Source: a virus. From it: 32,853 bases of DNA. Position numbers and translations under genes: made by a program. Below are positions 2,823 to 5,338 of this stretch, piece by piece. The stretch lies in the IMG/VR virus record IMGVR_UViG_3300020180_000451, positions 1-32,853 of that record, one strand, 5' to 3'. The notes beneath the pieces were generated by a model that was given only the letters and a program-made list of their open reading frames with translations, ran no database searches and was not told the origin of the DNA. Position 1 is the stretch's first letter. Each line of letters opens with the position of its first letter.

Positions 2823-2874
2823 TATAAAAACCCCTCTGACACTTTGTCTCGGGGGTTTATTTGTTAGTTGCCGT
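2823..2874 (-). repeat. Repeat B copy 1, containing a terminator hairpin and the stop of the large methyltransferase
   Basis: These 52 bp are identical to 5456-5507. The core is a compound hairpin, CCCC tct GACA ctt TGTC tcg GGGG, with flanking AAA/TTT that reads as a rho-independent terminator. The repeat also covers the last two codons and stop (Gly-Asn-TAA) of the minus-strand gene. The copy at 5456 covers the same Gly-Asn-stop end of a different gene, so the repeat joins gene 3' ends to a shared terminator. B1 and B2 are direct repeats flanking the methyltransferase. Confidence 0.85.
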
Positions 2875-5338
2875 CGTCGGAGCCGGCAAAAACTAAACAC
2901 TCCCTTAATTGGGGGTGTTTTGCGTTTATCCGTGCTTCTGCTATCTTGCAATACTCTGGGTCAAGTTCTATTCCTATAAAATCAAAGCCTTCTAGTTTGC
3001 AAGCCTTACCTGTAGAGCCACTTCCCATGAAGGGGTCAAGTACTATTCCACCTTTTGGTGTTACAAGTCTTACTAGGTATTGCATGAGGGAGGTGGGTTT
3101 TATAGTCGGATGAGAATTAACAAATCCCTCCAGCCCATCATTCCTATCTTTCTTTGAAGCCTTCGGGAAGTATGCGAAGCTTGCGTGTTCTGACTTTTGT
3201 TCCGCCTTTTCCTTTGTGTCCAAGCTGGTGTTCTCGTCTATGGCAAGTAGCACAGAGCCAAATAATTGAGAGAGGTTTTGAGTAGTCGGGGTGGTGCCTA
3301 TGTTTTCCCATATCGCCACAATGGACGCAAGGTTCAGGATTGGGGTAGAGTTTTTGAAGTTTCCAATAAAGTCCTGAGTAGCTAGTAATTCCTCGTTCTT
3401 GAAAACCAAGCTCCTTATTTTTGCAAGTTCTTGAGCAATAGATGTTGCACATCTTTGACACTCTATTCCCACAGACTTTACATTTTGGACGAGTCGTTCG
3501 TCTAGCCAGTCCTCCACATTTAAGGGAGCAATATTTCCGATAGTTGCTCGGATAGTTATCAAAGCCAATTCCACATTGTTCGCATTTGTATGTTTGCATA
3601 CACTCATTGTATCATACTCTAGCGTTGGACTGCAAGTCTTAAAGAAGCGTGAGGCATTTCCTTCGCTTTTTTCAACACCAGGGCTTGTGACTTTTTTGCC
3701 ATTTCCTACAAAACCGCCAAATGTTCCACTTCCTGTTTTCCTTGCACCACTTGTTGAGTAAGGAAACAACCCTACCACCTCATCACTTCCGTCATGGATG
3801 AAGTTTGCGGGGAAGCGACCTGTTCTTTCTTCGTTAATTTCTTCTTTTTTACCCCATCCAGTTCCCTTACCTCCACCACCTCCGTTAATATGAATAGGCT
3901 CTGTCCCCACCCTTGAAGCGTCAATGTTAATCCCACCTGTTCCCCACTTCAATACATTCTCTGCGATAGTGCTTTCAGATAGTGGCTTGCGTGCTACTAC
4001 GATAGGTTCGTGAGCAGGTTTTAGAGCTGTACCCCAGCCTTCGTAGGGTGAGGTGCCTTTGGTGTCCTGTATCGTCAAGCTATTGTAACTACCGCCTTGC
4101 TTGTCATTCATTGTTCCATAAGCATCCCCACGAATATCAGGCACATTTCTTTCGCCTGTGACCTCCCTCTCATTCCCCTGCAACTTATCCACCGCCTTGC
4201 CTATGTTATGAGATTTGGGAAAGCCTGAATTACCTGTTACAAATATCTTTCCATTTCTACGAGCAACAAAAGCACCTGTTGATACAGTCGGACAAAAGAT
4301 TAGTCCTGTGTATTCAATTTTCGTAACTCTTGCCATTCGTGTAACTTGTGAACCCTGTTTGACGGAAACAACATCAGATTCTCCAACCGATTGTCCTCTG
4401 GGTTGTGGTTGATGTGATGAACTACCTCTACTCTTTCCAAGCAACGATTGAGAGATTGAGCCACTATCAGTCTGTGTTCCATAACATAGTTGTCTTTCCT
4501 TGCCATAGCTAAGTATTCTTTCGGACAACGTAAATACTTTATTCTGTATTTTCCGTAGTTTCCCTTTTTCCTGAAATAAGTTACTCCCCCTTTCCACGCA
4601 GGATTGTCCGCACCCCAATGAACCTTCTTTGCTCTGTGTTCTGGTAGGTTTGCTATTTCGCTCCCTATCTTTCCCCACTTCTTCCAGTCCTGCCCACGAT
4701 AATACCCGTTGCATTGTTTTGAGCAATACTTTGGATTGTAACTTGTGAACCCTATAAAAATCGTTTGACAATGTTGGCATAAGCTCCATTTCTGAGAGTT
4801 CCTCTGCCTGTACGAATGTAAGTTTTCCTTCTCGTTCAACAAGGCAACGATGGTTTCTACTGACGATTTGGTCTGTATAATCTGATTGTATTCTGTAGGC
4901 GGTATCTTTGTTGATTTGATACGACTGCCACCCTTCGGGTTCTTCCCATTTGTAAATGTCTTTTTGAATATCATATACCATAATCTTACCATACTTTGTA
5001 TCTTTATGGAAGCGTTCCCACCCATTACTTGTTAGGACTTCGGTATCTTCTGACAAACAACCATACACCCACATAATCTGGTCACGTATCTCAAACCCAG
5101 CATCTTCTATGTTTACTGCCATTCTGTGATAAGTTCTACTACCTGCAAAAGAAATTAAATGTCCACCTGGCTTTAATACTCGGATAGCTTCTTTCCATAG
5201 CTCTGTACTTGGTACATCGTAATCCCATTTCTTTCCCATAAAAGATAAGCCGTATGGCGGATCAGTTACGATTGAGTCCACACTGTTTTCTTCTAAAGTC
5301 TTTAATACTTCTAAGCTATCCCCATTTATTATTTGCAT
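2864..5338 (-). CDS. DNA methyltransferase with an intein and a second dual-coding insertion
   Basis: An 824-codon frame. Methylase motif IV is TDPPYG (residues 25-30) and SAM motif I is DPFMGSGSTG (768-777), the permuted beta-type order, probably N6-adenine or N4-cytosine. Residues 94-370 are an intein; removing it joins IMWVYG to SGFPKSHNIG, a junction typical of uninterrupted phage methylases. A second insertion lies roughly between ASRFFKT (562-568) and FAYFPKASKKDRN (721-733). It has no intein motifs but is completely covered by an out-of-frame HNH gene. The protein after splicing is 547 residues, still about 140 longer than expected because of that insertion. The last ~15 codons run through repeat A2, itself a terminator hairpin. 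An extended -10 lies 6 nt before the ATG. It is probably an orphan phage methylase. The catalytic core is confident; activity with the second insertion is uncertain. Confidence 0.88.
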   Translation of the reverse strand: MQIINGDSLEVLKTLEENSVDSIVTDPPYGLSFMGKKWDYDVPSTELWKEAIRVLKPGGHLISFAGSRTYHRMAVNIEDAGFEIRDQIMWVYGCLSEDTEVLTSNGWERFHKDTKYGKIMVYDIQKDIYKWEEPEGWQSYQINKDTAYRIQSDYTDQIVSRNHRCLVEREGKLTFVQAEELSEMELMPTLSNDFYRVHKLQSKVLLKTMQRVLSWAGLEEVGKDRERNSKPTRTQSKEGSLGCGQSCVERGSNLFQEKGKLRKIQNKVFTLSERILSYGKERQLCYGTQTDSGSISQSLLGKSRGSSSHQPQPRGQSVGESDVVSVKQGSQVTRMARVTKIEYTGLIFCPTVSTGAFVARRNGKIFVTGNSGFPKSHNIGKAVDKLQGNEREVTGERNVPDIRGDAYGTMNDKQGGSYNSLTIQDTKGTSPYEGWGTALKPAHEPIVVARKPLSESTIAENVLKWGTGGINIDASRVGTEPIHINGGGGGKGTGWGKKEEINEERTGRFPANFIHDGSDEVVGLFPYSTSGARKTGSGTFGGFVGNGKKVTSPGVEKSEGNASRFFKTCSPTLEYDTMSVCKHTNANNVELALITIRATIGNIAPLNVEDWLDERLVQNVKSVGIECQRCATSIAQELAKIRSLVFKNEELLATQDFIGNFKNSTPILNLASIVAIWENIGTTPTTQNLSQLFGSVLLAIDENTSLDTKEKAEQKSEHASFAYFPKASKKDRNDGLEGFVNSHPTIKPTSLMQYLVRLVTPKGGIVLDPFMGSGSTGKACKLEGFDFIGIELDPEYCKIAEARINAKHPQLRECLVFAGSDDGN
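2883..2926 (-). repeat. Repeat A copy 2, a terminator-like hairpin inside the methyltransferase 3' end
   Basis: These 44 bp are identical to A1 (1499-1542). Here the hairpin lies within the last codons of the large methyltransferase, encoding KHPQLRECLVF, whereas A1 lies just past the stop of the smaller methyltransferase. A1 and A2 are direct repeats bracketing the small methyltransferase and its upstream gene. A hairpin with a following T run (TTTAGTTTTTG) inside coding DNA could cause early termination of part of the transcripts. Confidence 0.8.
3144..3599 (-). CDS. HNH homing-type endonuclease nested out of frame in the methyltransferase gene
   Basis: A 151-residue protein in the +2 frame relative to the methyltransferase. 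Two N-terminal zinc knuckles are visible: CEQC (6-9) with CSLKC (24-28), and CKVC (40-43) with CSRTC (55-59). The HNH nuclease core follows: CVHC (91-94), HHPDYSKP (102-109) and CATCHRREH (116-124). Such HNH enzymes are free-standing or intron/intein-linked homing nucleases. It lies wholly inside the host gene, about 37 nt after the last clear host codon, and ends inside the resumed host motif KASKKDR. An ideally spaced extended -10 box precedes its ATG, suggesting independent leaderless expression. The cysteine pattern and HNH core make real coding very likely. Confidence 0.85.
   Translation of the reverse strand: MQTYKCEQCGIGFDNYPSNYRKYCSLKCGGLARRTTRPKCKVCGNRVSKMCNIYCSRTCKNKELGFQERGITSYSGLYWKLQKLYPNPEPCVHCGDMGKHRHHPDYSKPLSIIWLCATCHRREHQLGHKGKGGTKVRTRKLRILPEGFKER
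3606..3614 (-). promoter_or_regulatory. Internal extended -10 promoter for the nested HNH gene
   Basis: The minus strand reads TGA TACAAT GAGTGT ATG, an extended -10 with five of six consensus bases and exactly 6 nt before the HNH start codon. This matches the leaderless spacing of other promoters in this window, although it lies inside methyltransferase coding sequence. Confidence 0.5.
4229..5059 (-). other. Intein (Hint domain) in the methyltransferase
   Basis: Codons 94-370 (277 aa) of the methyltransferase. The N-terminal splice block starts with Cys94 (CLSEDTEVLTSNGW), block B is SRNHRCLVE (160-168), and the C-terminal blocks are GLIFCPTVSTGAFVARRNGK and IFVTGN, ending at Asn370. The next extein residue is Ser371, a valid +1 nucleophile, and a Gly-Asn end replaces the commoner His-Asn. 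The recognisable Hint part is about residues 94-193 plus 335-370, near 136 residues. The middle, about 194-335, has Ser/Gln/Gly-rich sequence without protein-like patterns in this frame and is the shadow of an HNH gene in the +1 frame. Excision should restore the host protein. Confidence 0.9.
4300..5025 (-). CDS. HNH homing endonuclease encoded out of frame within the intein
   Basis: An open frame of 241 codons in the +1 frame relative to the intein. The convincing part begins near residue 80: a zinc knuckle (CQHC at 83-86, CSKQC at 101-105) and a GxxNPAWKGG segment (138-147). The HNH_3-like core is YVMEHRL (180-186), VVHHIN (201-206), DNRLENL (211-217) and HKLH (226-229). Residues 1-75 look like the shadow of the intein N-half, and no ATG lies near residue 75-80. 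The true start could be a TTG, the distant ATG at 5025 or 4974, or a frameshift from the intein frame. The family is clear; how it is translated is not. Confidence 0.78.
   Translation of the reverse strand: MGGNASIKIQSMVRLWYMIFKKTFTNGKNPKGGSRIKSTKIPPTEYNQIIQTKSSVETIVALLNEKENLHSYRQRNSQKWSLCQHCQTIFIGFTSYNPKYCSKQCNGYYRGQDWKKWGKIGSEIANLPEHRAKKVHWGADNPAWKGGVTYFRKKGNYGKYRIKYLRCPKEYLAMARKDNYVMEHRLIVAQSLNRCLERVEVVHHINHNPEDNRLENLMLFPSNRVHKLHEWQELRKLNTQD

Follow-up and report, generated by a model that had tools for sequence, protein, structure and literature searches.

Homing endonucleases are usually thought to last inside genes only with the help of an intron or intein that removes itself. Mycobacteriophage ShiLan gp65 contains the ShiLan domain (Arsenault, Gosselin and Gogarten, Genes 2025; PMC11855218; precursor PMC9957025), which is described as an open in-frame insertion with an HNH gene in the third frame, with neither intron nor intein, that is apparently homing. 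Its HNH has a GTG start and no reported ribosome-binding site, and no selection test is given for the host frame (PMC11855218). Here we analyse IMG/VR virus record IMGVR_UViG_3300020180_000451 (positions 1 to 32,853; this whole stretch of 32,853 nucleotides is called the window), in which an HNH endonuclease gene lies out of frame inside a DNA methylase gene. A sequence-only reading of the window had proposed that this architecture is selected. The selection stands, whereas the novelty of the kind does not, the ShiLan domain having been published in 2025 (PMC11855218); as judged by sequence comparison, the window holds another HNH family at another site. What this work adds is selection tests in both frames, a control that calibrates them, the layouts of the promoters and the breadth of viruses covered.

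The host gene is an N6/N4 DNA methylase open reading frame (ORF) of 824 amino acids on the minus strand (2864..5338; Pfam N6_N4_Mtase E 2e-35; PHROG 67 DNA methyltransferase E 3e-72), which has no stop codon along its whole length from 5338 to 2864. Its catalytic motifs flank the insertion, with DPPYG near the N-terminus and DPFMGSGST near the C-terminus. The sequence-only reading had suggested a search for homologues without the insertion, and such empty-site methylases, fetched by their N-terminus, have the junction ASRFF/YCAKASKSER. Measured against them, the window carries an in-frame insertion of about 156 codons (about 150 in the earlier estimate) between ASRFF and the resumed YFPKASKKDR (~3173..3640, minus strand), its inferred ends being good to a few codons, and the methylase frame is open across it. 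The HNH ORF, of 151 amino acids, occupies the host +2 frame (3144..3599, minus strand; PHROG 2340 endonuclease E 1e-9) and encodes, as had been read, a complete zinc-knuckle HNH protein, with N-terminal Cys4 fingers followed by HHPDYxKPxxxxWLCxxCHxxxH. The gap before its start is indeed short, although the distance from RFF to the ATG is 41 nucleotides and not about 37, and at its other end the ORF runs on, as claimed, by about 29 nucleotides into the resumed host codons. The nesting of the HNH out of frame in the methylase is thus confirmed.

An AlphaFold model of the window HNH has a mean predicted local distance difference test score (pLDDT) of 83. Foldseek gave no match to this model at E<=0.001, while VIA-align paired residues ~70-137 with Cas5-HNH, the IscB HNH, the GVE2 HNH, EcoKMcrA and T4 endonuclease VII at Z 2.5-4.3, neighbours that agree weakly with an HNH fold. 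A sequence search for a solved structure of the HNH found none, and a plasmid collection searched with the HNH of the related locus L008 gave no match.

An open host frame might be a by-product of HNH amino acid and codon composition, with the HNH alone under selection. For the window by itself this account holds: synonymous codon shuffling, with the HNH protein and its codon usage held constant, expects 0.85 host-frame stops (P(0)=0.35), and the open frame of the window taken alone is unremarkable. The chance of 0.0008 put forward by the sequence-only reading is invalid, because it assumed random codons and ignored what the HNH frame encodes. We then turned to relatives, sought with the HNH and not with the methylase (L005-L009, L013, L014-L042, L049-L051, L144, L153 and L189); the sample was therefore not picked for an open host frame. 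Every HNH relative of full family length is nested in a methylase of the same family in the same relative frame, and the insertion site is identical in every locus with both flanks readable, L013 (LR745208, a 485 kb phage) falling outside this comparison on account of its left flank. Over the 32 HNH ORFs inside methylases the host frame contains 0 stops, against 58.0 expected (standard deviation 5.4), which upholds the claim that the architecture is selected. The combination that would have spoken for the contrary, an intact HNH with a broken host frame, was found in none of the 32 loci. The same shuffling applied to 40 distant free-standing HNHs expected 244.8 stops where 248 occur, which shows good calibration of the null; in the third frame of the in-methylase loci the count is unexceptional (287 stops against 324.5 expected). 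For the 18 members with at least 30% DNA difference, 29.3 stops are expected and the nominal log10 P is -17.9. The by-product account is therefore excluded for the family, barring a bias in the shuffle null, and we regard it as highly improbable, the more so as host-frame omega and the choice of a GTG codon, both described below, also stand against it. One locus, L026, fits the stop pattern when UGA is read as glycine. Its contig appears from the alignment to use code 25, conserved glycines of both the methylase and the HNH being TGA, in both frames.

Codon-level constraint, another check that had been proposed, was measured in both frames as omega, a pairwise overlap-aware estimate. Omega is 0.28 (0.20-0.39) in the HNH frame, 0.61 (0.45-0.80) in the host frame and 1.34 (1.04-1.75) in the unused control frame; the HNH and host frames are both under purifying selection. 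In close pairs, differences are spread almost flat over HNH codon positions 1, 2 and 3 (for example 26, 18 and 32). Three possible artefacts were rejected: a spurious HNH ORF is ruled out by its omega together with its invariant cysteines and histidines, a spurious host ORF by the stop test, and a sequencing error or assembly artefact by the agreement of independent contigs.

These results also bear on whether the insert is ever translated in the host frame. It could be removed as an unrecognised intron, or bypassed by the ribosome as in T4 gene 60, with the host frame open for some unrelated reason. Little sequence lies beyond the HNH, as is usual in minimal elements, and the flanking codons are partly repeated (RFF ... 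RFxY), as was noted for the ShiLan domain (PMC11855218). However, an untranslated insert should gather host-frame stops, where none are seen in place of the 58 expected, and its host-frame omega lies below 1. Rfam covariance models found no intron or other RNA in the region, either at the gathering score or at E<=1. The methylase ORF has no Hint match at E<=1, a weak test that also missed the neighbouring intein-like insert, and by eye the insert lacks a Cys or Ser at +1 and a terminal Asn. The absence of an intein or intron around the HNH, as first read from the lack of Hint motifs in the insert and of room for a ribozyme outside the HNH, is supported. Splicing of the insert is unlikely because an element that is spliced out has no need of an open host frame, and we consider removal or bypass very unlikely overall.

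A host-frame CxxC inside the HNH region is kept in 20 loci; its window version, CQRC, overlaps HNH residues VSKM (3449..3460, minus strand). The valine of the HNH motif PVRLMRN is encoded by GTG in 20 of 22 loci, compared with 14 of 133 valines elsewhere (Fisher 4e-14), and at this position only GTG yields a host-frame cysteine; the next base is C, in the window T. A further pair lies upstream, where the HNH encodes nothing. Scored together, CxLC before the HNH ATG and LCDxC within the HNH are both present in 18 loci, the first alone in 0, the second alone in 2 and neither in 12 (Fisher 4e-7, a value that takes no account of shared ancestry). The window has lost the upstream pair and has only the one within the HNH. 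The host frame may accordingly encode a zinc-binding insert in the methylase. It could even be that this reading is the working part, a zinc-binding methylase domain built on the two CxxC pairs, and that the HNH is secondary or decaying. The co-occurrence of the pairs, the position of the first outside anything that the HNH encodes, and the GTG choice all fit such a domain, as do L049 and L013, which keep the host frame despite a stop in the HNH frame. Yet the HNH is the more constrained of the two frames, 12 of 32 loci lack both pairs and the window lacks the first, the fold of the host frame is predicted at low confidence, empty-site methylases manage without the insert, and the correlation of the pairs leaves shared ancestry aside. 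We hold this account to be unlikely, while still giving it appreciable weight. A combined form, in which a single stretch of DNA carries both an overprinted, selected zinc-binding methylase module and a mobile nuclease with its own promoter, is less likely than not, and we propose it tentatively.

The HNH could be expressed from signals of its own. In the window an extended -10 promoter-like box, TGATACAAT (3606..3614, minus strand), has 7/8 matches to TGnTATAAT and ends 6 nucleotides before the HNH ATG. If TGATACAAT functions as a promoter, it would set the start of transcription at or beside the A of the ATG and give a leaderless mRNA. Boxes with at least 7/8 matches lie between RFF and the HNH ATG in 15 of 25 loci, against 1.6 expected from shuffling of codon order (never more than 6 in 2000 runs), and perfect 8/8 boxes occur in 9 loci against 0.1 expected. 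These counts support the earlier suggestion that the ATG with its own extended -10 is separately expressed. The box stops exactly 6 nucleotides short of the ATG in 7 loci, among them the window, and 27-36 nucleotides upstream of it in 8. Several of the latter (L020, L023, L024, L025 and L034) have a significant Shine-Dalgarno match upstream of the start; for L024 and L027 the ATG in the box analysis differs from the start used in the Shine-Dalgarno test. The box falls at varying host codons and in varying host frames, which argues for a constraint on the DNA and not on the methylase. In a general sigma70 scan the region was not enriched for promoters; information came only from comparing extended -10 boxes across loci. 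A Shine-Dalgarno sequence taken by itself is not widely shared (7 of 28 loci reach P<0.05). The frames do overlap in the order that would be required if the HNH were made as a fusion to the methylase N-terminus through programmed frameshifting and had no start of its own. In most loci, however, the HNH frame has a stop close upstream of the ATG (12 nucleotides in the window), which leaves little room to shift and argues for separate initiation, and the conserved promoter box also speaks against such a scheme; we judge a frameshift fusion extremely unlikely.

The distribution of the element suggests mobility. HNH identity correlates weakly with N-flank identity (r=0.20), compared with r=0.47 between the N and C flanks. 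Between L025 and L027, DNA identity is 95-100% over the 3' two thirds of the insert and slightly past its right end, where the flanks are ~50-60% identical, and the nearest methylase by N flank is often one with an empty site. The insert and its flanks differ in history, as expected under homing. Among 80 methylases picked by N-terminal similarity the site is empty wherever it is readable, so invasion is rare. The state seen in L049 and L013, an HNH frame with a stop and an open host frame, with the reverse unseen, is what homing followed by decay would produce. Nested HNHs of several types and at several sites in the same methylase family (the window site, the ARKP site and the intein-like insert) bear out the view that this methylase is a repeated target.

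Taken together, the insertion is probably a compact mobile element of the homing type, with the HNH gene as its whole cargo, whose placement in the second frame lets the methylase read through; we hold this with good confidence. The methylase would be a single, longer polypeptide, still active, with ~156 additional residues accommodated in a variable loop. The HNH would be made separately from the internal extended -10 promoter, on a leaderless message in the window layout or with a Shine-Dalgarno sequence in other members. This enzyme would then cut, close to the conserved ASRFF/YCAKASK codons, methylase alleles that have no insertion, and the element would spread through repair that uses the invaded copy as template. 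Overprinting would in this way replace splicing, harm being avoided by translatability in the host frame and not by self-removal as in an intron or intein. Several points weigh against this explanation. Cleavage of the target is deduced from distribution only. The window has no Shine-Dalgarno sequence of its own and a -10 that departs from the consensus at one position; a convincing box is missing from 10 of 25 loci, and a sigma70-type consensus may not suit these hosts. The sampled loci share ancestry, so that nominal P values overstate their independence. Finally, in an AlphaFold model of the invaded L008 methylase (26-row alignment) the methylase core is good, but the host-frame insert and the neighbouring variable region have pLDDT 30-43, a confidence too low for the three helices predicted there to be interpreted.

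The methylase of the window contains a further insert, intein-like in sequence (WVYG/CLSEDTEVL...FVTGN/SGFPKS; 4229..5059, minus strand; boundaries by eye), with another out-of-frame HNH ORF (HNH_3) nested in it at 4300..5025 on the same strand. L281, L282 and L283 show this HNH_3 nesting, with an open intein frame, at the corresponding site of the methylase; in them the HNH start overlaps a block-B-like TAYRIQSDxTDQIVSRNHR. Inserts of this type are probably inteins with an overprinted endonuclease. Phage ShiLan gp65 also has an intein at this site.

Large in-frame inserts were also seen at the ShiLan site, which follows the ARKP motif, in IMG/VR contigs and a contig of a metagenome-assembled genome (L020, L022, L049, L067, L086, L212, L214-L219 and L221). 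Those that were checked have a ShiLan-type HNH in the host +2 frame and 0 host-frame stops, where free-standing relatives have many; L067 and L086 are known as long inserts only. In L050 (3035-3514) the ARKP site holds a third kind of nested HNH (TRKCKRCGEVKQ...CWNCNWAYRLNGYCPHH), which is read in the host +2 frame. The methylase of L106 has an in-frame insert of ~220 amino acids at another place (residues ~240-470), before AIDRAAGAEREV. In L190 (3435-4020) an apparent deletion fuses the methylase start (...LQELEENSID) to the host-frame remnant of the insert (TTPTTKNLL...) with the frame kept, and in L049 (4529-5299) the methylase C-terminus is truncated by the next ORF, which has zinc fingers and an endonuclease domain resembling Vsr. 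In the window itself, near-identical stretches GGCAAAAACTAAACACTCCCTTAATTGGGGGTGTTTTGCGTT with a terminator-like hairpin on the plus strand occur at 1492-1548 and 2880-2935, each close to the 3' end of one of the two adjacent methylase genes; the copy at 2880-2935 falls within the methylase coding end.

Should the zinc-module reading be true, such dual-frame modules would give homing endonucleases a third, widespread mode of residence in genes, beside introns and inteins. Selection here keeps 150 codons translatable in two frames across viruses as unlike as a 485-kb phage record and one in which UGA is apparently glycine. Our analysis is the first statistical test of the 2025 ShiLan proposal and extends it to a second site and to an HNH family outside actinophages. 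A putative extended -10 promoter inside the gene, whether it gives a leaderless message or one that has a Shine-Dalgarno sequence, offers a testable answer to that paper's question of how the hidden HNH is expressed. The loci also supply many natural same-strand overlaps for the study of how new protein sequence arises by overprinting, and automatic gene calling will pick up just one of the two proteins at such a locus.

Neither the window site nor its HNH family was found in the searched literature, although a preprint (doi 10.1101/2025.01.02.630785, cited in PMC11855218) may mention related cases. ShiLan gp65 belongs to the same methylase family as the window methylase. Its insert follows CVAVKP and precedes PIVVARKP, whereas that of the window follows ASRFF, where gp65 is empty. 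The window HNH resembles the ShiLan-type HNH of L020, itself 52% identical to the ShiLan HNH, in the finger region alone (30% over 92 amino acids), and the window family starts at ATG, behind an extended -10 and in some loci a Shine-Dalgarno sequence, in contrast to the GTG of ShiLan. The window insert is therefore not a ShiLan domain proper, being at another site and carrying an HNH that is not homologous over its length. It does share the insertion in a phage methylase, the open host frame, the HNH in a third frame and the patchy spread with differing histories of insert and flanks, features that place it in a broad ShiLan-like kind of out-of-frame HNH insertions of phage methylases. Pacc40 gp60 and Applejack gp54/gp55 (PMC11855218, PMC12613952) are likewise methylases with a nested out-of-frame HNH-like ORF; Pacc40 gp60 is set apart by its description as a helicase-methylase with a 160-amino-acid nested product like PacI-type or AP2-type proteins. 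With inteins that carry homing endonucleases the window shares an in-frame insertion at a conserved host point and an endonuclease that would serve homing, but its insert has no Hint domain and its endonuclease is in another frame. The HNH endonucleases found in group I introns (I-HmuI, for example) and the free-standing ones that split genes have in common with it the HNH fold, zinc fingers and, in the window as a proposal, homing by cleavage of empty alleles; unlike them, the window element has no ribozyme, and its host gene is unsplit and, from sequence, unspliced.

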